Shown: positions 3,536 to 26,751 of the stretch, piece after piece
How the letters are laid out: every line of letters begins with the position of its first letter
How positions within the stretch are numbered: the first letter of the stretch is position 1
Assembly: GCA_027025615.1 (NCBI GenBank)
Contig: JALVQM010000067.1
Span: forward strand, 1-37,893
DNA: 37,893 nucleotides
Direction of reading: 5' to 3'
DNA from: Desulfobacteraceae bacterium
GTDB taxonomy: Bacteria; Desulfobacterota; Desulfobacteria; Desulfobacterales; Desulfosarcinaceae
The notes under the pieces: generated by a model
Told to the model about the DNA's origin: nothing
The model's input: the letters and a program-made list of their open reading frames with translations, nothing else
Databases searched by the model: none
Translations under genes and position numbers: made by a program

Positions 3536-3561
3536 CTAGCAAATAAAAGGAGGTACAGGGT

Positions 3562-5624: not shown

Positions 5625-5625
5625 G

Positions 5626-5674
5626 CCTTGGCACCAAGGGCCAATGTTAATAGGCAGGCGGCCGTCAGGCCGCC
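5626..5674 (+). promoter_or_regulatory. Tandem stem-loops after hcp
   Basis: Two inverted repeats sit between hcp and tssE. The first is CCTTG-GCAC-CAAGG at 5626-5639, immediately after the stop codon. The second is GGCGGCC-GTCA-GGCCGCC at 5657-5674, a perfect 7-bp GC-rich stem with a 4-base loop. Neither is followed by a run of T, so they are not classic intrinsic terminators. Protection of the hcp 3' end or partial attenuation before tssE are the likely roles (inference). Confidence 0.55.
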
Positions 5675-5693
5675 CGGCCTGAAATGAACAGCG

Positions 5694-6107: not shown

Positions 6108-6186
6108 TTGTTCAGCGGACCTGGAAAAAAGTTTTACAAGATTTTCACTTTTCGGCAATACCACTAAACATGAGAAAAGGTTTTTG

Positions 6187-7917: not shown

Positions 7918-8963
7918 AAAAGAAAACCAGCAAAGTTCAGGTGGATCAGCTGTTACAACAAGCCTACGAATTCTCCTTTTTCCAGGCGATCCGCCTTCTC
8001 CGCCAGGCCTGCCGGCAAGAGCCAAAGCAGGCGGATATCAGGGTGCGCCCCAAGCTGTTCCTCGGTTTTCCGGCTGCTGATATAGACCGCGTAACAGTGG
8101 AAAAAAACAACGACCGCAAGCTTTATTGCATGACAGCCAATTTTCTTGGGCTTTACGGGGTTTCCTCCCCCCTGCCCATATTTTATACTGAAGACCTGAT
8201 TGAAGAGCGGGCCCAGGACGAATCGGTCAGCCGGGATTTCCTGGACATCTTCAATCACCGGCTTTACGACCTGCTTTTCGAATGCTGGCGCAAGTACCGT
8301 CTTTTTTTCCAGGTCAACGAGTACAATGACCAAACGGTAAAAGAACGGCTGTACTGCCTTTTAGGCCTTGGCTCCGGCACGGCGCGCAAGGAAATGGACA
8401 ATTCCCGGCGACTTTTGCGCTACCTGGGATTATTTACCCAGTTTCCCCGCAGCGCCACCGGCTTGTCCACCCTGCTTTCCGATGCCCTTAAAAATGTTCC
8501 TATAACCATCATTCCCTGCATTGCCCGCAAGGCGAGGATTGCCGAGGATCAACGTTTTTCCCTTGGCCGGGCCAACTGCCGCCTGGGCGGAAACTCATAC
8601 CTTGGAAACCAGGTCCGGGACCGGATGGGTAAATTTCGCATAAGGATCGGTCCCCTGGATCAGGAAAAGTTTCTGTTTTTCACCCCCGGAAACCCGGGAT
8701 ACAGCGAGCTTGCCGAGCTGACCTCGTTGTATCTCAACCAGCCCCTTGAATGCGAGGCCGAGCTGGTAATGGCACCCGGCCAAGCCCAAACTACCTGCCT
8801 GGGTAAAAAACCGCGGGCCTGTCTGGGGGTAAACACCTGGGTTTTCGGCGGACATACTATCGATCGCCAGATGGAAATCCGCTTTGCCGTCAGACAACCT
8901 CAAACCACCCCGGCCCCAGGAACCGCAAATGGTCCGGCCGAAGAGGAAAGGATAGCATCATGA
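7914..8963 (+). CDS. tssG: TssG (VasB) baseplate protein
   Basis: 349-residue TssG, partner of TssF in the baseplate wedge. Typical features are the early YEFSFFQAIRLLRQ segment, the FLGLYGVSSPLPIFYTE motif and the RYLGLFTQFPRSATGLSTLL region. The ATG at 7914 overlaps the tssF stop codon (ATGA) and puts the conserved N terminus at the expected distance. A GGAG lies somewhat far upstream (about 13 bases), and an in-frame ATG at 7881 would add 11 unconserved residues. It ends in a 4-base overlap with clpV. Confidence 0.92.
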   Translation: MKKKTSKVQVDQLLQQAYEFSFFQAIRLLRQACRQEPKQADIRVRPKLFLGFPAADIDRVTVEKNNDRKLYCMTANFLGLYGVSSPLPIFYTEDLIEERAQDESVSRDFLDIFNHRLYDLLFECWRKYRLFFQVNEYNDQTVKERLYCLLGLGSGTARKEMDNSRRLLRYLGLFTQFPRSATGLSTLLSDALKNVPITIIPCIARKARIAEDQRFSLGRANCRLGGNSYLGNQVRDRMGKFRIRIGPLDQEKFLFFTPGNPGYSELAELTSLYLNQPLECEAELVMAPGQAQTTCLGKKPRACLGVNTWVFGGHTIDRQMEIRFAVRQPQTTPAPGTANGPAEEERIAS

Positions 8964-11578
8964 TTCGTGTGGACATCAAGGCTCTGATCGAACGCCTCAA
9001 CCCTTATTGTGTCAACTGCCTGGAAGCAGCCGCAGGCATGTGCGTCGCCCGTACCCATTACGAGGTTACCGTGGAGCACATGCTTTCCAAGCTGATCGAT
9101 TCCCCCCAAACCGATATTCCCTTGATTCTCAAGCAGTTCGACATCGACCCGGGTCGGTTCCAAAAAGCCCTGGACCAGACCTTGGAAGGGTTTTCCACCG
9201 GCAATGCAGCCAAGCCGGTCTTTTCGCCTATTTTACTCGACTGGCTCCAGGACGCCTGGCTGGTCGCCTCGGTGGACATGGGAGAAGCCCGTCTGCGTTC
9301 CGGTGCCCTGCTGCTTTCACTGCTTAACCGCCCCCTGCAATTGGCCGCCGGTGACTGGATTGACCTGCTGGCCGATCTTAACAGGGACACTATCTCCAAG
9401 CAGTTCTGGGAACTTGTCAAGGGATCCAGCGAAAAGGCGGTCCGCCCCGAAGTGGTGGAAACCGAAGCCGGCCGACCCACAGGTGAAACCGCCCTGGAGC
9501 GTTTCTGTGTCGATTTTACCGCCAGGGCCGCAGCAGGAGAAATCGATCCTGTATTCGGGCGCGATGGTGAAATCCGACAAATGGTCGACATTCTAGCCCG
9601 ACGTCGCAAAAACAACCCCATCGTGGTGGGTGAAGCCGGGGTTGGCAAAACCGCTGTCGTCGAAGGACTGGCCCTGCGGGTGGTAGAAGGAGATGTGCCC
9701 GAAATTTTGCGTGAAGTTTCCATCATGGGACTGGACATGGGACTGCTGCAGGCCGGGGCAGGGATGAAAGGCGAATTTGAAAACCGACTGAAATCGGTAA
9801 TTAACGAAATCAAGGCTTCAGAAAAGCCGATCATCATGTTTATCGACGAGGCCCACACCCTTATAGGGGCTGGTGGCGCTGCCGGTATGAGCGATGCCGC
9901 CAACCTGCTGAAACCGGCCCTGGCCAGGGGTGAACTGCGGACCATCGCAGCCACCACCTGGTCGGAGTACAAGAAATACTTTGAAAAAGATGCAGCTCTG
10001 GCACGACGTTTCCAGCCCGTAAAACTGGACGAACCTGACGTTGAAACGGCCAAGCTGATTTTACGCGGGCTCAAGACCAAGTACGAAAGCGCCCACAAAG
10101 TGGTGGTCCGGGATGATGCCATTGAAACTGCTGCAGAGCTTGCCAGTCGTTATATTTCAGGCCGCCAGCTTCCCGACAAGGCCGTCGACCTGCTCGACAC
10201 CAGCGCAGCCAGGGTGAAAATTTTACTGACCGCCACCCCGGATATAATCGAGGACAAGCAGCGCCGCATCCAGGCCATCGACCGGGAACTGGATGCCATG
10301 GCCCGTGACCGGCTCCACGGAGTACAAATAGATATTGAGCACCAAAAAGAACTGGAAAACGAACGCCGGGATCTCAATCAACAAATGGAACAGCTCAAAG
10401 AGCGCTGGCTCAAGGAGCAGGAGCTGGCCCACCAAGTTATCGATCTGCAGAGCGAGTTGGAAGAAATGCAGGAAGATGGCGATCAAAGACAAGTCATCGA
10501 AAATCAGCTTTCCGACCTGCGGGCCAGGCTCGCCGAGATCCAGGGTGAAGAGCCCCTGGTACGCACAGAAGTCGACCCTGACGTGGTCTCCAAAGTGGTT
10601 TCGGACTGGACAGGAGTGCCCCTGGGCAAGGTTATGCGGGACGAAGCAGCCAACGTAGTCAACCTGGAAGAAAACCTGAAGCAAAGAATAAAAGGCCAGG
10701 ATCAGGCCTTGACGACCATCTGCAAGGTAATCCAATCGGCAAAAGCCGGTATCAAGGATCCCAATCAGCCCATGGGTGTATTTCTGCTTGTGGGACCCAG
10801 CGGTGTAGGCAAAACCGAGACAGGCCTGGCCATTGCCGACCTGCTCTTTGGTGGTGAAAACTTCATGGTAACCATCAACATGAGTGAATTTCAGGAAAAA
10901 CACACTGTCAGTCGCCTGATTGGATCACCGCCTGGTTATGTGGGCTACGGCGAAGGGGGTGTGCTGACCGAGGCCGTACGCCAGCGACCTTACTCTGTAG
11001 TCCTGCTGGACGAAGTGGAAAAGGGTCACCTGGAGGTAATGAACTTATTTTACCAGGTATTCGACAAGGGAATGCTGTCCGACGGCGAAGGACGACTGAT
11101 CGATTTTAAAAATACAGTAATATTTCTTACCAGCAACCTTGCCACCGATGTAATCACCGAGATGTGTGCCGACGGAAGACCGGACCTGGAAACCATTGAA
11201 GCCGCGGTCAGGCCGATTCTGTCCAGCCATTTCAAGCCGGCCCTGCTAGCCAGAATGACAGTGGTGCCCTATCTTACCCTGGATAGCGACATCCTGAAAC
11301 AGATTGTTGCTCTCAAAATGGAAAAACTGGTGCGCCGCTTAGCCGAGACCCATAAAATGGAACTGGTTTATACTCCGGCTGTGGCCGATCAGATTGCTGC
11401 CCGTTGCACCGAAGTTGAAACCGGGGCCCGCAATATCGACGCTATTATGAACGGATCCATCATGCCGCGCATGTCACATGAGATCCTGGCCCGTATGAGC
11501 CAGGCCGAACTGCCTTCAAGGGTAGTGCTGGATCTGGACGATGAAGGTGGCTTTGTTGTCAAGTTTGACCAAGCTTAA
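8960..11578 (+). CDS. tssH: ClpV (TssH) sheath-recycling AAA+ ATPase
   Basis: 872-residue ClpV, a Clp/Hsp100 ATPase that extracts and recycles contracted TssBC sheath. It has an N-terminal Clp_N-like domain (about 1-150). The first AAA+ module has Walker A GEAGVGKT at about 224-231 and Walker B IMFIDEAHT at about 291-299. A Glu/Gln-rich coiled-coil middle domain lies at about 415-530. The second AAA+ module has Walker A GPSGVGKTE at about 612-620 and Walker B VVLLDEVEK at about 680-688. All nucleotide-binding motifs look intact, so it should be active. The position between tssG and vgrG and the N-terminal domain favour ClpV over the housekeeping ClpB. Confidence 0.95.
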   Translation: MIRVDIKALIERLNPYCVNCLEAAAGMCVARTHYEVTVEHMLSKLIDSPQTDIPLILKQFDIDPGRFQKALDQTLEGFSTGNAAKPVFSPILLDWLQDAWLVASVDMGEARLRSGALLLSLLNRPLQLAAGDWIDLLADLNRDTISKQFWELVKGSSEKAVRPEVVETEAGRPTGETALERFCVDFTARAAAGEIDPVFGRDGEIRQMVDILARRRKNNPIVVGEAGVGKTAVVEGLALRVVEGDVPEILREVSIMGLDMGLLQAGAGMKGEFENRLKSVINEIKASEKPIIMFIDEAHTLIGAGGAAGMSDAANLLKPALARGELRTIAATTWSEYKKYFEKDAALARRFQPVKLDEPDVETAKLILRGLKTKYESAHKVVVRDDAIETAAELASRYISGRQLPDKAVDLLDTSAARVKILLTATPDIIEDKQRRIQAIDRELDAMARDRLHGVQIDIEHQKELENERRDLNQQMEQLKERWLKEQELAHQVIDLQSELEEMQEDGDQRQVIENQLSDLRARLAEIQGEEPLVRTEVDPDVVSKVVSDWTGVPLGKVMRDEAANVVNLEENLKQRIKGQDQALTTICKVIQSAKAGIKDPNQPMGVFLLVGPSGVGKTETGLAIADLLFGGENFMVTINMSEFQEKHTVSRLIGSPPGYVGYGEGGVLTEAVRQRPYSVVLLDEVEKGHLEVMNLFYQVFDKGMLSDGEGRLIDFKNTVIFLTSNLATDVITEMCADGRPDLETIEAAVRPILSSHFKPALLARMTVVPYLTLDSDILKQIVALKMEKLVRRLAETHKMELVYTPAVADQIAARCTEVETGARNIDAIMNGSIMPRMSHEILARMSQAELPSRVVLDLDDEGGFVVKFDQA

Positions 11579-11601
11579 CCAGGAAAAAGGGAGTATTAGC
11601 C

Positions 11602-13773
11602 ATGCCTGCCAATGAGCCCGAGTTTACTTTCGAAATTGCCGGAAACCATTTCCACGTGGTTGCCTTTAAAGCCCGCGAAAAGATTTCAGATCTTTTTCAA
11701 ATTGATCTCCAGCTGGCAACCGAAGAAGAAGTGGATTTTCCCGATGTAATCGGCCAGGCTGCAATTTTTACCATTGAAGGAATCGAATCCGAGCGCCGGT
11801 TTCACGGTATTGTCAACCGTTTTGCCCAAACCGGCTCCTCAGGTCGCTTTTTTCTGTACACGGCCCAAGTAGTCCCGTCGGCCTGGTTGCTGAACCTGGA
11901 GCAGGATTGCCGGATCTTCCAGAACAAGACCGTACAGGAAATCATTCAACAGATAATGGAAGAATCGTCCATTGCCTCGGACGCTTTCGACTTCAGGCTC
12001 CATGAAAATTATACCGCCAGGCCCTATTGTGTCCAGTACGATGAAACCGACCTGAATTTCCTCAACCGACTCTGTGAACAGGATGGAATTTTCTACTTTT
12101 TCGAGCACTCCCAGGAAGGGCACGTTATGGTCTTCGGCGACGGCCAGGTCAATTACCAGCCAATCGAGGGTGAAGCTCAGATAGAATACAACCCAGACAG
12201 CAGTATGGTGGCTGAAGAAGAAGCTGTCGTAAGTTTCAGATTCGATCGCCAGTTGACCCCCGGCAAATTCAGCACGCGGGACTACAATTTCACCCGGCCG
12301 TCTCTGGATCTTACCTCCGAACAGACAGCCGAAGACAACACCGAGAGGGAAATTTTTGAATTTCCAGGCCTCTACGAAGAACAGAGCGACGGCGACCGTC
12401 TGGCCCAGGTGAGGCTGCAGCAAACGGTGATGTTCAGGGATCTTGCCAGCGGCACCGGTGTCTGCCCCCGGTTTGTTCCCGGTTTTACCTTCACCCTGAG
12501 CGGCCACAGCCTGGATTCACTAAACCAGGAGTACTTGCTGACAGAAGTAATCCACGAGGGTAGCCAGCCCCAGGTACTGGCCGAAAGAAGTCGCACCGAC
12601 GAGCCCAGCAATTACATCAACAGTTTCAAGGCCGTGCCTTCATCGATAACCATCCGGCCGGAGAGGCGCACGCAACGGCCCAGAATCCGCGGAGTACACA
12701 CCGCCGTGGTGGTTGGGCCCTCGGGTGAAGAAATCTACACCGATGACATGGGGCGGATCAAGGTCCAGTTTTTTTGGGATCGCAATGGACAGAGCGATGA
12801 AAACAGTTCCTGCTGGATCAGGGTCAGCCAGGCCTGGGCCGGATCCGGTTGGGGAGCGCTTTTTATCCCCAGGATCGGCCAGGAGGTGGTGGTCGATTTT
12901 ATCGAGGGAGATCCCGACAGGCCGCTTGTTACCGGGACCGTTTACCACGGTACAAACACCCCGCCCTGGGACCTGCCGGATGAAAAAACCAAAAGCGGAA
13001 TCAAAAGCGAAAGTTCCACCGGCGGCGGGGGCAACAATGAAATCCGTTTCGAAGACAAGGCCGACAATGAAGAGCTCTATATGCACGCCCAAAAGGATAT
13101 GAACATCGAGGTCAACAATAATCACAGCCGCACTGTGGGCGCCAATGACAGTTTAAGCATCAAGAAAAACCGCAATATCCATGTAAAGCAAAACTGCGAA
13201 GAAAAAATCGATCAGCAGCGCAAGCTAACCATCAAGGGCAAACATGAACGCACGGCTGAAAACGACGAAACCATCAACATCACCGGCAAACGCAAACTAA
13301 CTGCCGGTACCGAAGAGCACAAGGTAAATGGAAACCGCAAGCTGGATGTTACCGGCAACGAAAATTACACTGTAACCGGCTCGCGCACCTTCAGGGCCCG
13401 CTCGGAAACCCATACCATAGGTACAACCAGACAAGTAAGCTCCCAATCAGAAACCAAAAGAGTATCTTCCTCCCGAACATTTACCGCTGGTGTTGAAACT
13501 TACACCGTAACCGGTGCCCGCACTCTCACAGTAGGTTCCGAAAACCGGACGGTCACCAACCAACAGACCTTTCTGGGCATGGATGTGACCACCGATTCAG
13601 GGGCCAAGTTCGAAAACTTCGCCGGGATGAAATGCTCAAACCATTTGGCCCTGTTGATGGAGCTGAAACAGCTCACCAACAGCGTAACTAATATAAAGCT
13701 GGAATACACAAATGTGTCATGTACTCAGAATGGAATCGAACTCGATCCAGCCACTTTACACATAATGACCTGA
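11602..13773 (+). CDS. vgrG: VgrG (TssI) spike protein
   Basis: 723-residue VgrG, the trimeric needle tip at the head of the Hcp tube. Residues about 1-380 are the gp27-like hub, with TARPYCVQYDETDLNFLNRL as the family hallmark. Residues about 395-455 are the gp5-like OB domain, with CWIRVSQAWAGSGWG and IGQEVVVDFIEGDPDRPLVTG. From about 485 to 650 there are short repeats of 'T(V/I)xG...' type that form the beta-helical needle. The last 45 or so residues leave the repeat pattern (CSNHLALLMELKQLTNS...) and are not an evident toxin domain. It could be the docking site for the following DUF2169, DUF3540 and DUF4150 proteins (inference). Confidence 0.94.
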   Translation: MPANEPEFTFEIAGNHFHVVAFKAREKISDLFQIDLQLATEEEVDFPDVIGQAAIFTIEGIESERRFHGIVNRFAQTGSSGRFFLYTAQVVPSAWLLNLEQDCRIFQNKTVQEIIQQIMEESSIASDAFDFRLHENYTARPYCVQYDETDLNFLNRLCEQDGIFYFFEHSQEGHVMVFGDGQVNYQPIEGEAQIEYNPDSSMVAEEEAVVSFRFDRQLTPGKFSTRDYNFTRPSLDLTSEQTAEDNTEREIFEFPGLYEEQSDGDRLAQVRLQQTVMFRDLASGTGVCPRFVPGFTFTLSGHSLDSLNQEYLLTEVIHEGSQPQVLAERSRTDEPSNYINSFKAVPSSITIRPERRTQRPRIRGVHTAVVVGPSGEEIYTDDMGRIKVQFFWDRNGQSDENSSCWIRVSQAWAGSGWGALFIPRIGQEVVVDFIEGDPDRPLVTGTVYHGTNTPPWDLPDEKTKSGIKSESSTGGGGNNEIRFEDKADNEELYMHAQKDMNIEVNNNHSRTVGANDSLSIKKNRNIHVKQNCEEKIDQQRKLTIKGKHERTAENDETINITGKRKLTAGTEEHKVNGNRKLDVTGNENYTVTGSRTFRARSETHTIGTTRQVSSQSETKRVSSSRTFTAGVETYTVTGARTLTVGSENRTVTNQQTFLGMDVTTDSGAKFENFAGMKCSNHLALLMELKQLTNSVTNIKLEYTNVSCTQNGIELDPATLHIMT

Positions 13774-13788
13774 AGCGGCATTTTAGCC

Positions 13789-16359
13789 ATGAAAATAATC
13801 AAACCCTTGAAACTGGGCTTGCTGTTTAAGACCTTTGAATACCGGGGGCGCTGTTTCTGGTCTCCGGCCTTACTGATCTTTTTCGACTTCCAAGACAGGC
13901 CTCAGCTGGAAACAGAGGTTGACCTCTGGAAGCTGGTGCCCCAGCGCTTGGGACAACAGATCCTGGACGAGGCCATGCCCAAAAGCCGGGCCGAAATCCT
14001 GGTAAACGGTTCCTTTTTCGCCCCCGGACACAAGCCTGTAACTGCCGGCCAGATAAAGATAAAAATAGGGCCGGTGGACAAGACCCTGTACATCTATGGC
14101 AACCGCTACTGGAAACGGTCGCCCTCCCTGGCCTGGATTATTTCCGATCCAGAACCGATGCTGGAAATGCCTATAGACTGGGGTCATTCTTTCGGGGGTC
14201 CCGACTACAAGCCCAACCCCCTGGGCAGGGGAACCCAGGCAACCAAAATGCCAGGACACGGAAAGGTTGTTGCCCTGCCCAATGTCGAGCTTCCCGGACA
14301 ACTCATAGGTTCACCCAAGGATCGGCCCCCACCGGCCGGCTTGGGTCCCATCGACCTGACCTGGCCCCAGCGTTTTTCGAAATGTGGTACCTATGGCAAG
14401 CAATGGTTTGAAGAACGCTTTCCAGGCCTGCCGGATGATATCGACTGGACTTTTTTCAACACAGCACCTACAGACCAGCAGATAGACGGTTTTTTCAGCG
14501 GAAACGAGACTTTCGTAGTGGAAGGGATGCATCCTGACCACAAACGCCTGGAAGGCAGACTGCCTGCTGTCAGGCCGCGCTGTTTTATCTGCCGCCAAAG
14601 TTCAGATCAAGCCCGGGACCTTGAAGAGCTGGAACTCAACCTGGATACCGTCTGGCTTTTTCCCGACGTGCTCAAAGGCCTTCTGATTTATCGTGGACTT
14701 ACCGAGGTTTCTGATAGCATGGCCAAGGAAATCACCAAAGTATTAATGGCCTATGAAAAGCTGGACTCTCCTGCCCGGAACCTCGAACACTACCGCCAAG
14801 CGCTTGAAAAACGATCCGATCCTCAAAAGGCGGGCCTGACTCTTCTGGACGAAACCGACCTGATCGCAGAAGGCGAACGTTCCGGTATTGCTGAGCTGAT
14901 GGCCGCCGACGATGGCCAGCAGCAACAATGGGAACAGTTGCTCCAGAAAAAGCTACGCCTGCGCATGGAAAACGACCTCAAACAGGTAAGGGCATCACTG
15001 GCTTCCCAGGGGCTTGATCCAGATAAGATCCTGCCTCTGCCTGAACCTGTAGAATACGACCCCACCGACATCGACAAGCTGCTAGCAGAGGCAAAGGATG
15101 CACGCCGCAAGTCTGAACAAGTACTTGCCGGGCATTTGAAACAGCTGGGATTGACCAAACAGCAACTGGTGGAACAAGCCGAAACCAAGCCTGCACCTCG
15201 ACCGGTTTTTTCAGCAGCCCGGGCAGTTGAGACCTTCCGGTCCATTGGCATTGAAAGTAATGAGCTGACAAAAAAGATGCTGGCAATTGAAGAAACCTTT
15301 TTTCAAAGCTATCGCCAGTTCGGTCACAAGTTGCCGCCGGTTATACCTCCGGGACCGGAGACCGACGAAGAAAGGATCCAAATCTTGATCAGGGCCTGTA
15401 AAGAAGGCACCAGCCTGGCAGATATGGATCTTGCCGGGCTCGACCTTTCCGGGATGGAGCTTTCCGGAGCCAACTTGGCCGGAGCTTTCCTGGAAGGCGT
15501 AAGTCTTGCTGGAGCAGATCTTTGCGGGGCGGATCTTTCCAACTGCGCCCTGATGCGGGCCGATCTTTCAGGAGCAATGTTGAAAGGCGCCAAAATCCGT
15601 GGCGCCGGCCTTGGCCGCAGCAAGCTGACCGGGGCAAATTTTACCGGAGCAGATCTTGACGGAGCCTATCTGGTTGAAGCAGATCTTTGCGGGACGATAT
15701 TTGTCGAAGCAAGCCTTGCAAAAGCCGACCTGAGTCAGGTCAAGGCCCTCAAAGCCGATTTCAGGCGGGCTACGATCACTAACGTACGTTTTATCGAGGC
15801 TGATTTTAGCGGCGCAAATTTCAGCCAGGCCGATCTTGGAGAAGGAATTTTTATTCAAACCGTTTTGAAAAAAGCCGATTTTAACGGCTGTAAGCTGGTC
15901 AAAGCAACTTTAGTCAAAACGGACGCAACCGAAGCCGACTTCAGCAATGTGCGCTTTGACAATCTCAGGGCCGCTGCGGACTGCATCTGCGAAAAGACCA
16001 GCTTCCGACACGCATGGATGGAAGGGGCCAACCTCAGAGGGGCCAGATTGAAAGGGGCCAACTTCGATCAGGCCAACCTCGACTCCGCCGACCTGAGCGA
16101 AGCCGATTTACGCCAAACCTCCTTTCGCTATGCAACAGCCAAAAAGGCCCTGTTCATGGAGTCAGACATGACCGCAGCCAAAATGACAGGTGCCAATCTT
16201 TTTGAAAGCCTTCTGCATAAGGCCAACCTCGAACAGACCGATCTGCAGGGTACCAATCTGTTCGGGGTCGATTTCATGAAGGCCAGGTTCCGGAACACCG
16301 ATGTTCGTCAAGCCCTCACGGCAAAGTCAACCCTACTGCGCTGGATGCCGAAAAAATGA
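13789..16359 (+). CDS. DUF2169-pentapeptide repeat fusion, T6SS accessory
   Basis: 856-residue protein with three parts. Residues about 8-300 match the DUF2169 family by pattern (PLKLGLLFKTFEYRGRCFW at the start, WGHSFGGPDYKPNPLGRG near 125-142). Residues about 310-530 are charged and helical. Residues about 540-850 are a long series of A(D/N)LxG-type pentapeptide repeats, expected to form a right-handed quadrilateral beta-helix. DUF2169 genes are known neighbours of vgrG in T6SS loci and are thought to help load PAAR-type tips or effectors; here vgrG is 15 bases upstream. No signal peptide or membrane segment is seen, so it is cytoplasmic until loaded. The 3' end overlaps the next gene by 4 bases. 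The exact function of this fusion is unknown. Confidence 0.85.
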   Translation: MKIIKPLKLGLLFKTFEYRGRCFWSPALLIFFDFQDRPQLETEVDLWKLVPQRLGQQILDEAMPKSRAEILVNGSFFAPGHKPVTAGQIKIKIGPVDKTLYIYGNRYWKRSPSLAWIISDPEPMLEMPIDWGHSFGGPDYKPNPLGRGTQATKMPGHGKVVALPNVELPGQLIGSPKDRPPPAGLGPIDLTWPQRFSKCGTYGKQWFEERFPGLPDDIDWTFFNTAPTDQQIDGFFSGNETFVVEGMHPDHKRLEGRLPAVRPRCFICRQSSDQARDLEELELNLDTVWLFPDVLKGLLIYRGLTEVSDSMAKEITKVLMAYEKLDSPARNLEHYRQALEKRSDPQKAGLTLLDETDLIAEGERSGIAELMAADDGQQQQWEQLLQKKLRLRMENDLKQVRASLASQGLDPDKILPLPEPVEYDPTDIDKLLAEAKDARRKSEQVLAGHLKQLGLTKQQLVEQAETKPAPRPVFSAARAVETFRSIGIESNELTKKMLAIEETFFQSYRQFGHKLPPVIPPGPETDEERIQILIRACKEGTSLADMDLAGLDLSGMELSGANLAGAFLEGVSLAGADLCGADLSNCALMRADLSGAMLKGAKIRGAGLGRSKLTGANFTGADLDGAYLVEADLCGTIFVEASLAKADLSQVKALKADFRRATITNVRFIEADFSGANFSQADLGEGIFIQTVLKKADFNGCKLVKATLVKTDATEADFSNVRFDNLRAAADCICEKTSFRHAWMEGANLRGARLKGANFDQANLDSADLSEADLRQTSFRYATAKKALFMESDMTAAKMTGANLFESLLHKANLEQTDLQGTNLFGVDFMKARFRNTDVRQALTAKSTLLRWMPKK

Positions 16360-17483
16360 ACGATCTGGAAAAAAAGCTGGAGCAACAGATCAAGCAAGAA
16401 CTGGCTTACTTCGGTCCACCCCAACGCCTGGATCGGCAGGAGCTTGAAAAGCGCGCTGCCGGCGGAGAGTTCCTGGCCAATTTCAATTGCAGCGGCCTGG
16501 ATCTTTCCGGAATCGATCTGTCTGGATGTATAATGGAAAGGGTTGATTTCAGGGGAGCCAATCTGGAAGGCGCCCGTTTCAAAGAGGCGGTGCTCAACCA
16601 ATGCAGCCTGGACCATACCAGGCTGGCCGGAGCCAATTTATTCATGACTTTGATTACCCAGACCGGACTGGAAAAGGCAAGCGCACCGCAGTCCTGCTGG
16701 ACAATGGCCAAGATCGTGGAAAGTCCGGCCGATGGCCTGGACCTCAGCGGCTGCCAGCTTTCCAAGGCTTTCTTTTATCAGGTAAACCTCAGCCGGGCGG
16801 TGCTGGCTTCTTCCGACCTGGAACAGGCAGCTTTCATCGAAACCGTTCTAGAAGGCTGCGATTTTTCCGGTGCCTTGCTCCCCCAGGCGGTTTTGGTGAA
16901 AGTCGATTTCAGGCAGATCAATATTTCCAAAGCCGACCTGTCCCGGGCCATCCTGATGGAATCAAACTTCAGCGGCCTTGACCTCTCCGGTATAAACCTG
17001 GTTCAAGCCCAGTTGAAAGGAAGCAACTTTTTCCAAACCGACCTCTCCGGCGCCGATCTGACCCAGGCAGGGTTTGTCAAGGCTAACCTGGAAGGCGCCA
17101 ACCTGGACCGGGTCAAGGCAAAAATGGCTCTTTTCGCGGAGTCTAACCTGAGAGGAGTTTCCATGCGCATGGCCGACCTGTGCCAAGCCGTGCTCCAAAA
17201 GGCAGATCTTACAAAGGCCGACCTGCGGGCTAGCGACCTGACCGCCGCCGTGCTATCCGAAAGCAAATTCCTGGCGGCCCGGCTGGAAAAGGCCAATTTC
17301 ACTGACGCCGACATGGCCCATGCCGATCTTTCCGGGGCCGACTTGAGCGGAGCCAACCTTTTCCGGGCCAGGTTGCATCGAATCATCGACAAGGCAACCA
17401 TCTGGAAGGGCTCCAATCGGGAATCGGCCAGCGGGGACGACAAACTAAGGGTCATGGGCGAAGAATGGCAGCCGCCTCTTTGA
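16356..17483 (+). CDS. Pentapeptide repeat protein, T6SS accessory
   Basis: 375-residue protein. A short charged helix of about 40 residues starts it, ending in GEFLANFNCSGLDLSGIDLS. Pentapeptide repeats run from about residue 46 to 345, with many A(D/N)L, GANL and SGAD units. A 30-residue tail follows (KATIWKGSNRESASG...). The gene starts in an ATGA overlap with the DUF2169 fusion, so the two are probably made together in similar amounts. Some repeats deviate around residues 105-140, where a Cys- and Lys-rich insertion interrupts the pattern. The likely role is a scaffold or adaptor in the spike-loading module (inference from context). Qnr/MfpA-type gyrase protection proteins also use this fold, but the length and neighbourhood argue against that. 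Confidence 0.85.
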   Translation: MNDLEKKLEQQIKQELAYFGPPQRLDRQELEKRAAGGEFLANFNCSGLDLSGIDLSGCIMERVDFRGANLEGARFKEAVLNQCSLDHTRLAGANLFMTLITQTGLEKASAPQSCWTMAKIVESPADGLDLSGCQLSKAFFYQVNLSRAVLASSDLEQAAFIETVLEGCDFSGALLPQAVLVKVDFRQINISKADLSRAILMESNFSGLDLSGINLVQAQLKGSNFFQTDLSGADLTQAGFVKANLEGANLDRVKAKMALFAESNLRGVSMRMADLCQAVLQKADLTKADLRASDLTAAVLSESKFLAARLEKANFTDADMAHADLSGADLSGANLFRARLHRIIDKATIWKGSNRESASGDDKLRVMGEEWQPPL

Positions 17484-17509
17484 AAAGCTAAAACAACAGG
17501 AGATAGCAA

Positions 17510-18160
17510 ATGGACAATCTGGTACGGATAAGAAAAGAAAATCCTGTCTATCAGCAGTACGCTGTTGTAACGGAATGCCATGGTGACGAATTTTGCGTCA
17601 GAACTCAGGAGCAGTTGTATTGCGCCCGCCGGGCAGCAAGCTGTCTTGTTCACCCTCAACCCGGAGACCGGGTTCTGGTCTGCTGCCAAGACAGCGGCGA
17701 TTGTTTTATCCTGGCAGTGCTGGAAGCAGCCAGCCCCGGCACCACCCGGATTGCACTGGACGGCGATCTGCGCCTGGAACTTGACTCTGGCGAACTCCAG
17801 GTGGCAGCTCAGGACGGAATCGGGCTGGCCACTGCAGGACGCTTCCAGTCCACCTCCGGCCAAGTGCAGCTAAATGCTGTTTCCGGTAAATTCAACATTA
17901 ATCAAACCGTTTTCAACGGAGCCTGTCTCCAGGCCACCGTAGAGCGTATCCGGCTGCTGGCAGCTTCCACCGAAACCCTGGTTCAGCGCCTTGTACAAAG
18001 GGCCAAGCGTGTTTTTCGCAGCGTTGAGCAAGACGAAGTGGTCAAAGTCGGCCATATTGACGTATCCGCTTCCAAACTGATGACCTTGAGCGGTAAATAT
18101 ACAATCATGACCGCTAAGGAAGATGTTAAAATAGATGCAGAGAGAATCCATATAGGATAA
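17510..18160 (+). CDS. DUF3540 protein, T6SS spike-associated
   Basis: 216-residue protein matching the DUF3540 family, which is found with DUF2169 and DUF4150 genes in T6SS loci. The N-terminal half (about 1-85) is beta-rich and contains PGDRVLVCCQDSGDCFILAV, which resembles the gp5 OB-fold segment of VgrG (IGQEVVVDFIEGDPDRPLV in this window). The C-terminal half has short alternating strands with LRLELDSGELQV, GQVQLNAVSGKFNI and a final VKIDAERIHIG, again like a spike beta-helix. A helical stretch with RLVQRAKRVFRSVEQ lies near 158-172. No signal peptide is present. AGGAG lies seven bases before the ATG. A spike-extension role is an inference. Confidence 0.8.
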   Translation: MDNLVRIRKENPVYQQYAVVTECHGDEFCVRTQEQLYCARRAASCLVHPQPGDRVLVCCQDSGDCFILAVLEAASPGTTRIALDGDLRLELDSGELQVAAQDGIGLATAGRFQSTSGQVQLNAVSGKFNINQTVFNGACLQATVERIRLLAASTETLVQRLVQRAKRVFRSVEQDEVVKVGHIDVSASKLMTLSGKYTIMTAKEDVKIDAERIHIG

Positions 18161-19760: not shown

Positions 19761-20702
19761 TTAAGAAAAAAACTTCTTAAACAAAGAAGATGTTTTTTTT
19801 CGTTCGCCTTGGGTCGTTTTTGCATCCGGCTGCTGACGTTCGAATCCAGGTCCCTGGGGTGGCAATTGCCCGCTTTGCGTCTGAACTGCGGGTTTTTCTT
19901 CTTCGACCAACCTGCCCCCACCCAGAAATTTGAAAACCGGACCGTCGGCTCCCAGCCTGATATTAACCTCCGGTTTCAGGGGCGCTTGGCCTTCAAGGGG
20001 CTGACCATTGATCAAGACCCTGCCCCTTCCTGTCAAGTCCTTGATCCAGTAACTTTCCCCGGAAAAAAAGACCTGAACATGACGCAATTCAAGGGCCGGA
20101 TGCTCGATTACAAAATCACAGCCCGGATCCTTCCCAATAATAAGCGGAAGACTCTTAAAAGATTTCAGGGTCGGCCCATATTGAATGGCAAAAGGAACAC
20201 TTACCTGTTCAGCCTGAGGATCGGAACTCCCGGGGGCAATAACTGCACCTGCAGTAGGACCAGTGGCTTGGTCTGGGGGGGTGGTTGGGGAAGGCGGCGG
20301 AGTGGCCGGGGCCGGTCCGGGAGGCGGACCGGCCTGGGGCGCCGAAATTTCTTTTCCCTGGACCGGGCCGGGGGTTGCCTGGGTAACCTGGGTTAGAAAA
20401 CTTACCTTGGGCCCGCCCTCGGCAAAGGTTATCACGTCTCCGTCTTTAAGGTAAACTTCGCTGATCTGCTTGCCGTTTACATAAGTACCATTGGTGCTTT
20501 GGTCTACCAGCTTGAATCGATTACCCTCACGGATAATCATTGCGTGACGCCGGGAGATGACAACCAGATCCTTGGGAAACTGCAGGTCACAGTCCGGATG
20601 GCGCCCAATGAGAATCTGGTCCCGGCTGAAATCCTGAATTTCTCCTTTTAGAGGTCCCTGGATATGGATTAGCTGAACATTTATAGCAGGAATCTGGCTC
20701 AT
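19761..20702 (-). CDS. Twin-FHA domain protein (Fha-like T6SS regulator)
   Basis: 313-residue protein with two forkhead-associated domains. FHA1 (about 8-95) has every signature: LIGRHPDCDL, ISRRHAM and NGTYVNGKQI. A Pro/Ala/Gly-rich linker (about 100-160) follows. FHA2 (about 165-262) is degenerate, with IIGKDPGCDF in place of GR, LELRHVQV in place of S(R)xH, and no NGT. A basic tail (KKTSSLFKKFFS) ends it. FHA domains bind phosphothreonine; Fha proteins relay kinase signals to T6SS assembly in Pseudomonas and Agrobacterium. AAGGAAGG lies five bases before the ATG. The gene is divergent from the phosphatase/kinase operon, across a 303-base shared region. Confidence 0.88.
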   Translation of the reverse strand: MSQIPAINVQLIHIQGPLKGEIQDFSRDQILIGRHPDCDLQFPKDLVVISRRHAMIIREGNRFKLVDQSTNGTYVNGKQISEVYLKDGDVITFAEGGPKVSFLTQVTQATPGPVQGKEISAPQAGPPPGPAPATPPPSPTTPPDQATGPTAGAVIAPGSSDPQAEQVSVPFAIQYGPTLKSFKSLPLIIGKDPGCDFVIEHPALELRHVQVFFSGESYWIKDLTGRGRVLINGQPLEGQAPLKPEVNIRLGADGPVFKFLGGGRLVEEEKPAVQTQSGQLPPQGPGFERQQPDAKTTQGERKKTSSLFKKFFS

Positions 20703-21005: not shown

Positions 21006-21758
21006 ATGATTGCAACGGTACGTGGTTTCATGCATCAACTGGAAATATTTGGCCGCACCGATACCGGCCTTGTCAGACCGAACAACGAAGACACCTTCGC
21101 GCTGAACCCTGGTGCAGGTTACTGCCTGGTAGCAGACGGAATGGGCGGAGCTGCCGCCGGAGAGACTGCCAGCAGGCTTTTTGCCGAAGCTTCTGCTGAA
21201 ATCCTGGGTACCAGTCAAATAGCCGATGAAGAGGAAGCGGCAGGCAAAGTTCAAAAAGCTTTTCAACGCGCCAATGAACTCATCCTGGCCCATGTCCAGG
21301 AAAACCCGAACCATAAAGGAATGGGCTGCACGGCCGAACTTCTGGTCGTACATACCAGCGGTTATGTCATAGGGCACATGGGAGACAGTCGCACCTACCG
21401 CTTTCGTAACAGTGCTTTAAAACAACTCACCCGTGATCATTCCCTGGTGCAAGATCAGTTGGATCGCGGCTTGATCAGCGCCGAAGAAGCTCGCAATCAT
21501 TCCATGCGCAACGTCGTTTTGCGAGCCGTAGGTGTAGACCCGGCTCCAGCCCTGGACACTCTACGCGGCCCGGTGCATAAGGGTGACCTGTTTCTGCTGT
21601 GCTCCGACGGCCTGACCGACATGGTAACAGACGAGTCGATTGAAGAGGTTTTAAAGGCCAATCATCCTTTAGAAACCCTGGCTGACCAACTGATTGAAAT
21701 CGCCAAACAGGCTGGAGGCAGGGATAATATCACCGTAGTGCTGGCAAAAATTTTATGA
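21006..21758 (+). CDS. PP2C-family protein Ser/Thr phosphatase (PppA-like)
   Basis: 250-residue PPM/PP2C phosphatase with all metal-binding motifs: TDTGLVRPNNEDTF at about 19-32, VADGMGGAAAGE at about 43-54, GHMGDSRTYR near 125, CSDGLTDMV near 200 and GGRDNITVVLA at the end. It removes phosphate from Ser/Thr residues and, as PppA in Pseudomonas, opposes the kinase that activates the T6SS through Fha. It starts at ATG 21006 or at an in-frame ATG at 21030; neither has a strong ribosome site. Its stop overlaps the start of the protease gene by 4 bases (ATGA), implying coupled translation. Confidence 0.9.
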   Translation: MIATVRGFMHQLEIFGRTDTGLVRPNNEDTFALNPGAGYCLVADGMGGAAAGETASRLFAEASAEILGTSQIADEEEAAGKVQKAFQRANELILAHVQENPNHKGMGCTAELLVVHTSGYVIGHMGDSRTYRFRNSALKQLTRDHSLVQDQLDRGLISAEEARNHSMRNVVLRAVGVDPAPALDTLRGPVHKGDLFLLCSDGLTDMVTDESIEEVLKANHPLETLADQLIEIAKQAGGRDNITVVLAKIL

Positions 21759-22690
21759 AAAAGAAAATTTACTTAATAGTTTCCGTAATTTTATTAGCAC
21801 TGTTGCCGCCAAACGCCATGGCCCGACAGGCGGACTCAACCAGAACCCTGCAAATGCCCGTGGCAGAAGCACGCCAGGCGGCTACCGAGTTTTTCGTGGA
21901 ACGCGGCTACAGTGTCTCTCCGAGTAACACCAGCCAAGGTGGCGCAATACTTTACGCGGACCGTAAAGACAGCCGGATTGAGATTCACCTTAAGCCATAC
22001 TCGGCTCTGGCCACCAGGATCAGCCTCCTGGACAAGGCCCACAAAGGACAGGTAGATATGGTAATGTTCTGGTCGGCCATGGAAAAAGCTGCTTCCGGAA
22101 CCCGGGCCATTGGCGGCCATGCCGCTGCACCTGCACCAATCGGAGTTGTGGACCTGGCCCCGGCGGTAGTTTGCCTCTATTCTAACCAGGATTCGGTTGA
22201 TTTCCAGGCCAGCGGCTTCCTCTTTGATCGTCGTGGATTGATCATAACAACGGCCCACAAAATGGTACCCGGCCACAATATCAAAATCCTTTTCAACAAC
22301 GGGGAGCGGGCTGAAGGCCGGGTGCTGAAGATAGACAAAGAGATGGACTTGGCCCTGGTGCAGGCAACCGGAGGGGTTGATGGTCCCCTGGTGAACCTGG
22401 CTGCCGGACGCTTTTACCTGGAAAACGGTGAAAAGGTGGTCAGCATTACCTGCCCTCAACCACTGACCCCCCAGTTTCACAATGGAAAGGTAGACGGTCC
22501 GCCCCGCAAGGCCGGAGGTCAGTTGCTCTGGCAGGTCAAGCTCAACGTGGAACCAGGCACCAGCGGAAGCCCTGTGTTCGACAGCCAGGCGCGCCTGGTA
22601 GGGGTGATTAAGGGCCGTTTCCGGGGCACCGACTCCATCGGGTACATTATCCCTTTTGAAACCGTTCTCCGCTTTCTGGAAATATACTGA
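21755..22690 (+). CDS. Exported trypsin-like serine protease
   Basis: 311-residue protein with a signal peptide (MKKKIYLIVSVILLALLPPN, cleavage probably near residue 24). A small alpha/beta domain at about 30-110 (ARQAATEFFVERGYSV ... SRIEIHLKPYS) recalls DUF3568-like or BamC-like folds, which is a weak match. The trypsin-like domain from about 125 carries a full triad: His168 in TTAHK, Asp198 in EMDLALV and Ser270 in GTSGSPV. The 30-residue His-Asp and 72-residue Asp-Ser spacing fits HtrA/DegP, but no PDZ domain follows. It probably acts in the periplasm. It overlaps the phosphatase gene and is followed four bases later by the kinase, so it likely belongs to the same signalling unit. No described T6SS phosphorylation pathway contains it. 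Confidence 0.83.
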   Translation: MKKKIYLIVSVILLALLPPNAMARQADSTRTLQMPVAEARQAATEFFVERGYSVSPSNTSQGGAILYADRKDSRIEIHLKPYSALATRISLLDKAHKGQVDMVMFWSAMEKAASGTRAIGGHAAAPAPIGVVDLAPAVVCLYSNQDSVDFQASGFLFDRRGLIITTAHKMVPGHNIKILFNNGERAEGRVLKIDKEMDLALVQATGGVDGPLVNLAAGRFYLENGEKVVSITCPQPLTPQFHNGKVDGPPRKAGGQLLWQVKLNVEPGTSGSPVFDSQARLVGVIKGRFRGTDSIGYIIPFETVLRFLEIY

Positions 22691-22694: not shown

Positions 22695-23867
22695 ATGCGC
22701 TATGGAAGATACGAAATTATTAAGGAGTTGGGCAAAGGCAACATGGGTGTTGTTTACCAGGCCCATGACCCCAGTATAGACCGGCTGGTGGCCCTCAAAG
22801 TACTGCGGCCGGATCGGGTTACCGACCAGGCTTTTGTGGCCCGTTTTCTAAAGGAGGCCATGGCAATTGGCCGGTTATCCCATCCCGGAATAGTTACCGT
22901 TCACGATGTCGGTGAGGACAAGGGAACGGTTTACATTGCCATGGAATACGTAACCGGCAGCCCCCTGGACGAAGTAATTCGCGCAGGCAAGTTGTCCGTC
23001 GAACAAAGCGTGGAAATAGCCTGCAAAGTCGCCGAGGCACTCCACTATGCCCATGAAAGGGGCATAGTCCACAGGGATATCAAGCCATCTAATATCCTTC
23101 TGAATGACAACAACGAGACCAAGATTACCGATTTCGGTATCGCCCGGATTGAAGATCCTGACAGTGGTACCATGACCCAGGCCGGGGAAATACTTGGAAC
23201 ACCGGTGTACATGTCTCCTGAACAGGTAAAGGGACAGAAGGTGGACGGCCGTTCCGACCTGTTTTCCCTGGCGGTAATTCTTTACGAGCTTGTTGTCGGC
23301 AAACGGCCGTTTGGCGGTAACAACCTGGCGGCAATTTTTCACTCCATAGCCAATGATAATCCCGACCCTCCTGCTGAAGCTGATCCTTTCATCAGTAAGC
23401 GTCTAAGTGACACAATTATAAAAGCCCTGGCAAAAAAACCCGATCAACGTTTCCAAAGTGGACGGGAAATGGCCAAAGCGCTGAAAACGGCAGTCCAGCG
23501 ACGCCAAAGCTCAAATGTTGATACCGGCAAGGTTTCATCCCGCAGGGGTATACTGGTAGGACTTGGGGCTGCCGCACTGGTCGTGTTGCTGGCAGCAGCA
23601 TGGCTGGTATTTAAACCCGCTCCTGAGCCAATACCCCATGAACCAGATGTACAAAAAGCCATCTTGAATGTCACCAGCGAACCGGATGGAGCCGATATCT
23701 TTGTAAATGGAACTTTCAGGGGCAAAACTCCCCTTGAACTGCAACTGCCCCTGGGAAAATACGAGATAGCCCTCAACCTGGATAATTATTATGAATGGGA
23801 AGCCCAGTTAGAATTTGACCAGGCCGGGCCCACCCCTTTGCATGTGCGCCTGGTACCGATCCAGTGA
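22695..23867 (+). CDS. Transmembrane Ser/Thr protein kinase with PEGA domain (PpkA-like)
   Basis: 390-residue Hanks-type kinase. The glycine loop GKGNMGVVY, the ATP-binding Lys in ALKVL, the catalytic HRDIKPSN with Asp128, the DFG in ITDFGIARI and GTPVYMSPEQV are all present, so it should be active. One membrane helix at about 285-306 is followed by a PEGA domain (about 322-385, DGADIFVNGTFRGKTPLELQ) that would lie outside the membrane. This resembles PpkA kinases that activate the T6SS by phosphorylating Fha. The ATG at 22695 is chosen over an upstream in-frame start at 22656 because the kinase fold begins at once with YGRYEIIKELG. It is the third gene of the phosphatase-protease-kinase unit. 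Confidence 0.9.
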   Translation: MRYGRYEIIKELGKGNMGVVYQAHDPSIDRLVALKVLRPDRVTDQAFVARFLKEAMAIGRLSHPGIVTVHDVGEDKGTVYIAMEYVTGSPLDEVIRAGKLSVEQSVEIACKVAEALHYAHERGIVHRDIKPSNILLNDNNETKITDFGIARIEDPDSGTMTQAGEILGTPVYMSPEQVKGQKVDGRSDLFSLAVILYELVVGKRPFGGNNLAAIFHSIANDNPDPPAEADPFISKRLSDTIIKALAKKPDQRFQSGREMAKALKTAVQRRQSSNVDTGKVSSRRGILVGLGAAALVVLLAAAWLVFKPAPEPIPHEPDVQKAILNVTSEPDGADIFVNGTFRGKTPLELQLPLGKYEIALNLDNYYEWEAQLEFDQAGPTPLHVRLVPIQ

Positions 23868-23909: not shown

Positions 23910-25886
23910 ATGAAGGCTGTTAAACCGTGGATAACTTGCTGGATTATGGTGGCCCTTGTAATCGCTGCAACCGCCGCCCCCGGCTTTTGCCAATTGAAAA
24001 CGGGCACCGCCGTTCCCTTGTTCAGCCTCAAGGATCTTAACGGCAAGATTTATGACCTGGCAAATATGAAAAACCAGCCCATGGTTATCCTTTACTTTTT
24101 CGATGCTGCCTCCCGCGCCAGCCAGGAAGGCCTGGTAAGCCTGGATGACCTGGCAAAAAAATATAAAGACGCCGACCTGGTTGTTTGGGGGGTTACCCGT
24201 TCACCCAAATCCAGGGTCAAGCAATTTGTAAAGAGGGTCAAACCCGGCTTTCCTATTTTGCTTGACACTTCCAAGGTTTCTGACATTTACCAGGCAAAAC
24301 TGGTGCTGCCCACCATTTGCATTCTGGGTCCGGACCTGAAATTAATGGATTTCTTTCAGGGCGGCGGCAAAACCACTGAAATAATGCTCGTCAAGCTGGC
24401 CCAGCGTCAATTGCAACGTCATCGGCCGGATCTTGCCAAAGCTATTTCTGAAAAAGTGGTCCGCAAAGATCCTAAGAACGTCGAAGCCAAAACGATCAAG
24501 GGTTATGCTGAGCTGAAAACCGGCAACATCAAGGGCGCTGAAAAAACATTTTACGATCTTTCAAGGTCGAAAGGAAAAGGCGAAATCCTTGGCAAAGAGG
24601 GCCTGTCACAAGTTTATGCCCGCAAAGGTGAAGCTGTCAAGGCTCGCCAGTTGGCACAGGAAGTAGAAAAGAAATCCGGCCAGCGGGCCCTGGTAAACGT
24701 GGTCAAGGGCGACCTGTTTTACAGCGAAAACAAGGTAAAGGATGCTGAAAAAGAATACCTGAAAGCCATATCCAAAAAATCGGCCTCACCGTACCACAGG
24801 GCAATCGCTTACAACCAGTTGGGGCGAATATACGCCACCAAAGGTGATTGGGCAAAGTCACGCAAGATGTACAAACAGGCCGTGGCTCTTGATCCTTACT
24901 ACATTGAAGCTACTTCCAATCAGGGGTTTACCTTTGAACGCCAAGGCAAGTGGACCGAGGCTTTAGCCTACTATAAGCGGGCTCTGGCGATCAACCCCAA
25001 TGATCTTTTTGCTTCCACTTTGGCAGCCGCAGCCCGTAAAATGGTAATTCTGCAACAGGACAAAGACCGCCAAAAAGAACTGGCCCGGCAGGTGGACGAA
25101 GTAGTCAAACGATTTAAAAAGAATGCTCCGGCAGCCAAGCCCCCTGCCCAGGACCCCTGGACAACCCGGGAAGCAATGGTAATAACCCTGCTGGAACCGG
25201 TTGAATCCGGAGGGCTCTCGGTTCGAGACGGTTTTGCCCGGGTCCTGGCCATGAATCTATCCCGGCAGATAAACTCTAGTGGACGGGTAAAAGCTGTCGA
25301 TCCCCTGGTTTTGGACAAGGTTTTGAACAAGCTGGGACTTAAGCAAAAGGACCTGGCCAAAGCCGAGACCCAGCTCAAGCTAGGCCGGGCTTTCAAAGCC
25401 AGGCTGATAATAAAAGGCCGCCTGTTTCACCTGGTGGACGGTACCCTGTTGAATTTCAAGCTTGTGGATACCAAAAACGGCCGGGAGGCTGCTACCGTTG
25501 AGCGGGAATTTGCCTCTACAGCCACTTTGCGCCAGGATATGCGCTTGCTTAACCGGGAAGTATTGACCACCATAATGAAAAAATACCCTCTCAAGGCCTA
25601 CGTTGTGGATGTCAGTGGCGGGCAAGTCCTGATCAACCTGGGCAAAAAACAGGGGGTTATCAACGGCACCCGTTTCGACGTGGTCGAAACCAAAGCCCCC
25701 ATAACCTACAAGGGGAAAACCTTTGCCCCGGAACCAACGGTGGTGGCAACCTTGGAAGTCTTCCGGGTAGAAGATGAATTCAGCTACGCCCACATTCTCA
25801 AGGATCAACGCCGTCCGGTTTACAAAGATGACAGGCTGATTGAGGCCGTGGCCCAGTTGGGAGAAGATGAGACCAAGCTCTGGTAA
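23910..25886 (+). CDS. Exported thioredoxin-like/TPR/CsgG-like multidomain protein
   Basis: 658-residue exported protein with signal peptide (about 1-27). Residues about 28-160 look like an AhpC/thioredoxin fold (PMVILYFFDAASRASQEG), but the CxxC is replaced by AASRAS, so it cannot be a redox enzyme. Residues about 165-390 are TPR helices (YNQLGRIYATKGDWAKSRKM). Residues about 420-555 resemble a CsgG-like module (LVLDKVLNKLGL ... ARLIIKGRLF), and about 560-650 an FlgT C-terminal-like beta domain (VDVSGGQVLINLGKKQGVI). A strong AAGGAGG precedes the ATG. It lies 42 bases after the kinase gene. It may be a periplasmic scaffold or sensor for the kinase; the function is inferred only from context. 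Confidence 0.75.
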   Translation: MKAVKPWITCWIMVALVIAATAAPGFCQLKTGTAVPLFSLKDLNGKIYDLANMKNQPMVILYFFDAASRASQEGLVSLDDLAKKYKDADLVVWGVTRSPKSRVKQFVKRVKPGFPILLDTSKVSDIYQAKLVLPTICILGPDLKLMDFFQGGGKTTEIMLVKLAQRQLQRHRPDLAKAISEKVVRKDPKNVEAKTIKGYAELKTGNIKGAEKTFYDLSRSKGKGEILGKEGLSQVYARKGEAVKARQLAQEVEKKSGQRALVNVVKGDLFYSENKVKDAEKEYLKAISKKSASPYHRAIAYNQLGRIYATKGDWAKSRKMYKQAVALDPYYIEATSNQGFTFERQGKWTEALAYYKRALAINPNDLFASTLAAAARKMVILQQDKDRQKELARQVDEVVKRFKKNAPAAKPPAQDPWTTREAMVITLLEPVESGGLSVRDGFARVLAMNLSRQINSSGRVKAVDPLVLDKVLNKLGLKQKDLAKAETQLKLGRAFKARLIIKGRLFHLVDGTLLNFKLVDTKNGREAATVEREFASTATLRQDMRLLNREVLTTIMKKYPLKAYVVDVSGGQVLINLGKKQGVINGTRFDVVETKAPITYKGKTFAPEPTVVATLEVFRVEDEFSYAHILKDQRRPVYKDDRLIEAVAQLGEDETKLW

Positions 25887-25956: not shown

Positions 25957-26751
25957 GTGGTTCCTTTGCACCAAAAAAAGACAGCTTGTATCTTGATTGT
26001 GATCCTGTTTTTCTCTGCGGGCTGCGCATCGGTCCCGCTAAAGGTGAAAAATCCATACCGGTCTCATGATTTCAACTCCATTCAACTCTCAAAAGGAAAG
26101 GTTGGGATACTGGGGGTTTTTACGCATGACAAGAAAGCAGGGTTGCTAAAAAGCGACAGGCTCAACGCCCAGCTTTATTCCGTTTTCAAGGAAAAACGGC
26201 CTGAACTCCCCATTTTTTCAAGCAATGTTACTGGTGCATTTCTGGCCAAATATGATCCGGAGATCCTGGTCAGGGCCTGCCGTAGGGATGATTCTACTTT
26301 GCTTGGATTTCCGGGAAAAAATGATGTCGAGAACATTCCTTTCAGATTTTTGCTTTTAGGCATTGTTGAAAAAAACCTGATCAGCAAATCAAGACATGAG
26401 GAGTTGAAGAGGGAACCCGACACAAAGATACCAGAACCGGGATACAAAAACAAAAAGCCAAAGGAAGAAGTCTGGATCTGCAGAACGACCACGCGTACAC
26501 TAAAGATAACCATAGCTGTTTTAGATATTAACTCCTGGAAGGTGGTATGGAAGGGCACACTTCAGGATACTGGTTCAAACAGCAGGTCTTATAAGGGGGT
26601 AGCTGGAGAAGATCTTTTTCAACAGCCCATCGCCTTTTTCGGAAATACACTGTTTGATGCCGCTGCAGGGCCTTTTCTTCAGCCCAAGGCCCCCTCTGAA
26701 GAAAAAATGGCGCGAAAAATATTTCTCTCCTTTGCGCTTCAAATAAGGTGA
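25957..26751 (+). CDS. Predicted lipoprotein of unknown function
   Basis: 264-residue lipoprotein. The N terminus has KK followed by a hydrophobic stretch and the lipobox FSAGC with Cys23 as the lipidation site. The rest is about 240 residues with no recognised domain; it has alternating strands and a basic region near 145-170 (EPGYKNKKPKEEVW). The start is uncertain: GTG at 25957 or TTG at 25966, the latter with GGTGG five bases before it. No ATG is available before the signal sequence. It lies 70 bases after the TPR protein and ends at a strong hairpin, so it is probably the last gene of the kinase operon. Confidence 0.65.
   Translation: MVPLHQKKTACILIVILFFSAGCASVPLKVKNPYRSHDFNSIQLSKGKVGILGVFTHDKKAGLLKSDRLNAQLYSVFKEKRPELPIFSSNVTGAFLAKYDPEILVRACRRDDSTLLGFPGKNDVENIPFRFLLLGIVEKNLISKSRHEELKREPDTKIPEPGYKNKKPKEEVWICRTTTRTLKITIAVLDINSWKVVWKGTLQDTGSNSRSYKGVAGEDLFQQPIAFFGNTLFDAAAGPFLQPKAPSEEKMARKIFLSFALQIR

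Follow-up and report, generated by a model that had tools for sequence, protein, structure and literature searches.

A protein of the Desulfobacterota in which a thioredoxin fold carries a fixed Ser-x-x-Ser at the catalytic Cys-x-x-Cys positions serves, we are somewhat inclined to think, as a periplasmic input to the PEGA kinase encoded next to it, in the regulation arm of the T6SS. Its gene is found in a stretch of 37,893 nucleotides from a Desulfobacteraceae bacterium (contig JALVQM010000067.1), hereafter the window. The signal inputs known for T6SS kinases, TagQRST, RtkS and TssW, are lineage-specific. In the open-access literature we found no description of the SxxS protein, nor of PEGA kinases in T6SS. 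The protein is a candidate T6SS-kinase input throughout a phylum whose anaerobic members are mostly uncultured, and both its proposed partner, the PEGA ectodomain, and its residues S68 and S71 are open to experiment.

The open reading frame starts with ATG and has zero internal stops; the features of its product and of the neighbouring genes are collected in Table 1. Among the homologues, an N-terminal hydrophobic segment is present in 68 of 69 and a lipobox-like motif in 1. The thioredoxin fold is of the ResA/TlpA type, ResA being the best PDB match of the family profile (1.1e-12). Direct Pfam matches of the CsgG-like part are weak (LpoB 0.048, FlgO 0.096) and there is no direct match to Pfam CsgG; this part was recognized with a profile of CsgG-type lipoproteins encoded adjacent in related loci, one of which matches Pfam CsgG (1.2e-11). 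The FlgT_C score, 27.9 bits, lies narrowly above the cut-off of 27, and the same region gives a weak match to chain O of PDB 6ve2, a 'LysM domain-containing protein' (E 0.015). In the AlphaFold2 prediction (three close sequences; mean pLDDT 45.7), the TPR region alone is confident. The fusion of thioredoxin, TPR, CsgG-like and FlgT-like parts, proposed in an earlier note made from the letters of the window, is real by Pfam and by the CsgG-type lipoprotein profile, and the envelope-type character that it gave the protein is supported, the pattern being phylum-wide. The same note spoke of a thioredoxin fold without cysteines. The catalytic pair is indeed gone, but the protein is not literally cysteine-free: C137 is located in the thioredoxin domain, three residues past the cis-Pro (conserved in 31 of 38 representatives), and C10 and C27 are in the signal peptide or at its end.

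Table 1. Features of the target gene, its product and the surrounding genes, in window coordinates.
Feature	Position	Strand	Evidence or remark
Target protein, 658 aa: signal peptide, SxxS thioredoxin fold, TPR, CsgG-like and FlgT_C parts	23910..25886	+	
Predicted Sec-type signal peptide without lipobox, residues 1-28	23910..23993	+	sequence
AhpC/TSA (ResA/TlpA-type) thioredoxin fold, residues 32-144	24003..24341	+	Pfam AhpC-TSA, E 1.9e-12
S68-R-A-S71 replacing CxxC	24111..24122	+	SxxS in 68/70 readable homologues
TPR repeats, residues about 163-375	24396..25034	+	Pfam TPR families, best 7.2e-18
CsgG/LpoB-like domain, residues 437-536	25218..25517	+	profile of neighbouring CsgG-type lipoproteins, i-E 1.4e-11
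FlgT_C domain, residues 571-631	25620..25802	+	Pfam, 3.4e-6
PknB-like Ser/Thr kinase with TM segment and C-terminal PEGA	22695..23867	+	Pfam Pkinase 2.7e-55, PEGA 6.3e-13
Secreted trypsin/HtrA-like serine protease	21755..22690	+	Pfam Trypsin_2, 2.3e-19
PP2C phosphatase (Stp1-type)	21006..21758	+	Pfam; NCBIfam NF033484 above cut-off
Double-FHA protein	19761..20702	-	Pfam FHA, 2.4e-32
Candidate lipoprotein of unknown family	25957..26751	+	in the place of the CsgG lipoprotein; no profile match
T6SS genes: TagF-like, TssA, TssC, TssF, TssG, ClpV, VgrG, DUF2169-pentapeptide, DUF3540	635..18160	+	Pfam; TssG from sequence and order

The catalytic site reads D65-A66-A67-S68-R69-A70-S71 and, when the family profile is aligned to ResA, S68 and S71 sit on both catalytic-cysteine positions. 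We collected 72 homologues by searching relatives of the window, its order and its phylum, and in 70 the site could be read. Among these, all from Desulfobacterota, SxxS occurs in 68, the exceptions being one SxxC (G635) and one AxxR, in a divergent copy (G007). When the 145 thioredoxin columns were ranked by conservation on 38 representatives sharing less than 70% identity (49% pairwise on average), S68 came 5th and S71 joint 12th. The family is also sharply bounded. Indeed, a thioredoxin-profile search of 395 genomes of the phylum returned 24 members at about E 1e-52 or better and the next match at 2e-19; CxxC is found in 23 of the 26 next-best matches outside the family, against which the family forms one clade (SH-aLRT 100). 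Because the motif is nearly invariant, stands among the most conserved columns and is confined to one clade, SxxS appears to be selected rather than decayed. A decayed site would drift, and chance or relaxed loss of the motif is ruled out by the conservation of the two serines.

The loss of CxxC redox chemistry, which the earlier note had read from the window alone, therefore extends to the family, where no intact CxxC was found among the 70 readable members. Judged by its site, the protein is not a redox thioredoxin, since CxxC is missing. It shares the fold and the cis-Pro loop with ResA/TlpA-type thioredoxins, but these have CxxC, whereas the target has a fixed SxxS, a TPR-CsgG-FlgT_C fusion and a clade of its own. 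This is a clear case of a serine pair in a thioredoxin fold that is as conserved as a catalytic motif. Outside the SxxS family, we noticed thioredoxin-like domains without CxxC in longer open reading frames (NxxS, QxxS and SxxS in L222, L226 and L227, respectively).

The gene directly upstream encodes a PEGA kinase with intact HRD and DFG motifs; the protease before it has the catalytic motifs TTAH, DLAL and GTSGSP, and the FHA protein scores below the cut-off of the TagH model TIGR03354 (1.3e-19, 71 bits, cut-off 120). The order FHA (reverse strand), PP2C, trypsin-like protease, PEGA kinase, SxxS protein recurs across Desulfobacterota. A PEGA kinase lies directly upstream of the SxxS gene in 43 of the 66 loci with enough upstream sequence, and PEGA was present in all 47 thioredoxin-adjacent kinases scanned, the window's included. 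A genome-contig scan yielded two close relatives only. The transmembrane kinase adjoining the gene, as the earlier note described it, is thus found in the window and across the phylum, but about a third of the testable loci have no kinase directly upstream. Of 9 protein-bearing genomes tested, 8 have a kinase orthologue (G006, which is without a sheath gene, among them), versus 6 of 76 T6SS genomes without the protein (Fisher 5e-7). In two of these six (G438 and G510), the kinase bears an N-terminal extension resembling, as judged by eye only, a cyclic-nucleotide-binding domain. PEGA kinases of the same type with such an extension are encoded at L239:3364-5133 and L240:7715-9487, in T6SS-bearing genomes that yielded no SxxS thioredoxin gene.

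In the tree, the kinase-linked state is widespread, and kinase-free loci are nested within it several times. Three genomes (G012, G019 and G020) have kept the kinase cluster and encode the SxxS protein elsewhere. The protein is not obligatory, since in a few genomes (e.g. L240 and L241) the kinase, PP2C and FHA genes stand beside a sheath-like gene in its absence. Another variant is found in L049-L054, L137 and L146 (loci of G009, G017, G021, G023, G028, G029, G236 and G302): the protease gene is absent, and PP2C is preceded by a second kinase that shares, where the two were compared, about 33% identity with that of the window.

Exchanges of domains point to the roles of the two halves of the protein. 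Two distant members maintain the SxxS thioredoxin and the neighbouring PEGA kinase but end differently, L169 in DUF4384 and L170 in TPR plus CAP. Because only the tails are swapped, the thioredoxin is the constant partner of the kinase, which suggests that it is the part pairing with it. Conversely, TPR-CsgG(-FlgT_C) tails follow a class III nucleotidyl cyclase (L171:6831-9005), a cyclase plus CHAT (L177:8243-11620) and CHAT (L179:9277-11997), a hydrophobic segment separating the halves in each; these proteins are apparently membrane-spanning one-component receptors. The pairing with cyclase and/or CHAT suggests that the tail is a sensory module feeding cytoplasmic outputs, in a transmembrane input role. 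We tentatively extend this to a broader and more doubtful proposal, in which the SxxS thioredoxin would be a selected binding domain, a pseudo-enzyme turned sensor, and its carriers phylum-wide periplasmic inputs for T6SS-controlling PEGA kinases, the envelope-reading tails (CsgG-FlgT_C, CAP, DUF4384) being swapped from lineage to lineage.

The T6SS is the candidate output. T6SS have been reported in syntrophic Desulfobacterota, without detail on this protein or on PEGA kinases (PMC10553843). The gene set of T6SS threonine phosphorylation, namely a transmembrane Ser/Thr kinase, PP2C, FHA and T6SS genes, is found in the window and in related loci. In the phylum draw, the sheath gene (PF05943) was present in 22 of 22 genomes with the full-length protein versus 23 of 373 without it (Fisher 6e-24), and in the order draw in 28 of 35 (partial copies included) versus 54 of 257. 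The P values overstate independence because the genomes are related, the 22 falling in eight families; G609 was counted on a divergent fused sheath-like gene alone, and G507, with a fragment of the C-terminal part only and no sheath match, was left out. At closer range, about 20 kinase-linked loci share a contig with a sheath or sheath-like gene at a distance of 6-29 kb; the exceptions are G431, with the sheath gene 285 kb away, and G637 and G070, with it on another contig. No kinase-free copy on a long contig or closed genome was found near a sheath gene (those checked include G012, G019 and, in G017, G028 and G029, the second copy), and no sheath gene was found in the genome of G006, where the kinase module is present. 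The T6SS linkage is therefore phylum-wide but does not stand on a strict reading, and a strictly T6SS-bound role is ruled out by the kinase-free loci and by G006.

Some side observations may be added. In L148 (15585-17150), L150, L151, L152, L161, L166, L239, L240, L241 and L244, the gene next to FHA encodes a sheath-like protein that is divergent, measures about 520-580 aa and is absent from the window; in the L148 copy, a VipA-like and a VipB-like part are combined in a TssB-TssC fusion (Pfam VipB 2.8e-34, VipA 3.1e-9). In the window, a DUF2169-pentapeptide fusion, a second pentapeptide-repeat protein and DUF3540 directly follow VgrG (13789-17483), a probable effector-loading cassette, and two dynamin-like/GTPase genes lie side by side at 31873-35648.

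The chief rival to a T6SS-dedicated input is a general envelope-stress module, in which the SxxS protein would report outer-membrane or peptidoglycan damage to the PEGA kinase and a stress programme would be the main output of the kinase, the T6SS being one client or a frequent genomic neighbour. The G006 module and the kinase-free copies away from T6SS speak in its favour, as do the likeness of the neighbouring protease to HtrA/DegS and, in several loci, an RpoH-like sigma factor and a LolB-like gene directly after the SxxS gene. It fits less well with a sheath gene in every protein-bearing genome of the phylum draw and with the position of most kinase-linked copies, on long enough contigs, inside or beside T6SS clusters, and we regard it as rather unlikely, though it is the alternative to be taken most seriously.

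Two further alternatives place the function in the envelope itself, and both draw on the downstream genes. Of 58 testable loci, 37 encode a CsgG-type lipoprotein downstream, which is often accompanied by a beta-barrel-like protein and a CsgG-MopE protein. The window's downstream genes gave zero matches to the profiles of these three, and a search of its genome with the lipoprotein query found no separate CsgG lipoprotein. The lipoprotein and beta-barrel-like neighbours, together with the CsgG/LpoB-like and FlgT_C parts, could fit a protein that is not a kinase input but part of the T6SS, as its scaffold at the outer membrane or peptidoglycan; it might, for example, activate wall remodelling locally, as LpoB does for PBP1b. 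This is improbable, as the association of the protein is with the kinase module and not with the structural genes of the T6SS, as it is absent from many T6SS genomes of the phylum and as its type of tail is also found together with a nucleotidyl cyclase. Peptide binding is known for redox-inactive thioredoxin folds elsewhere, and the protein could likewise be a folding or assembly chaperone for outer-membrane proteins such as its beta-barrel-like and CsgG-MopE neighbours, with no signalling role; the window and many kinase-linked loci have the kinase but not these neighbours, and we consider this quite improbable. Finally, persistence of thiol chemistry through C137, despite the conservation of this residue, is hardly credible for a lone cysteine that some members lack, in a domain with serine at both catalytic positions.

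Returning to the kinase-input reading, we propose the following course of events. The SxxS protein would be exported to the periplasm and serve as the input subunit of the transmembrane Ser/Thr kinase. Its C-terminal CsgG-like and FlgT_C parts may provide an anchor to the outer membrane or peptidoglycan and monitor the condition of the envelope, with the TPRs as spacer or scaffold. The redox-dead thioredoxin, through its fixed Ser-x-x-Ser face, would be a binding domain for the PEGA ectodomain or for a ligand shared with it, and its binding would set kinase activity, in whichever direction. In the cytoplasm, the kinase, opposed by PP2C, would act by phosphorylation on the FHA pathway, through which T6SS assembly is licensed.

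How does this compare with known systems? The C-terminal FlgT_C and CsgG-like domains recall FlgT/TsaP and CsgG/LpoB, but the architecture differs and no flagellar or pilus genes are named around the target. The N-terminal and middle domains of FlgT have no Pfam match in the protein, no flagellar genes were found among the window proteins scanned, and the CsgG-type lipobox is not present in its signal peptide; on these sequence features, it is neither FlgT nor CsgG proper.

TagR, of the Pseudomonas TagQRST system, carries an FGE-sulfatase fold. Within about 35 kb of the SxxS gene, a gene of this type was absent in 19 of 20 module-bearing genomes, the window's included; the exception is G042, whose FGE-sulfatase gene (L059, G042:C44:23799-24356) and thioredoxin gene are about 3 kb apart. 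Among the window proteins scanned with Pfam, none was named as TagQ and no pair as an ABC transporter. TagQRST is an envelope sensor upstream of PpkA, restricted to Pseudomonas, and TagR has been proposed to touch the kinase ectodomain (PMC6082577). The suggestion of the earlier note that the protein stands in place of TagQRST agrees with these results, with one protein in Desulfobacterota for four in Pseudomonas and a domain different from that of TagR.

Parallels are also offered by two other partners of PpkA. TssW of Acidovorax citrulli, an outer-membrane protein whose gene lies between ppkA and fha, binds the periplasmic domain of the kinase and controls T6SS initiation and position (PMC12607579); the target is likened to it in gene position, as a predicted envelope protein encoded near kinase and FHA genes. 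RtkS of Serratia marcescens is a periplasmic activator that binds PpkA and is reported to resemble no known signalling protein and to need DsbA for its stability (PMC6082577). The target resembles it in its predicted export, in the kinase, phosphatase and FHA neighbourhood of a T6SS and in its proposed role as input of a transmembrane kinase, but differs in its thioredoxin, TPR, CsgG and FlgT_C parts, and kinase binding is known for RtkS. By analogy, the SxxS protein would most likely work as RtkS, TssW and TagQRST do, as an envelope input to a T6SS kinase of the PpkA kind.
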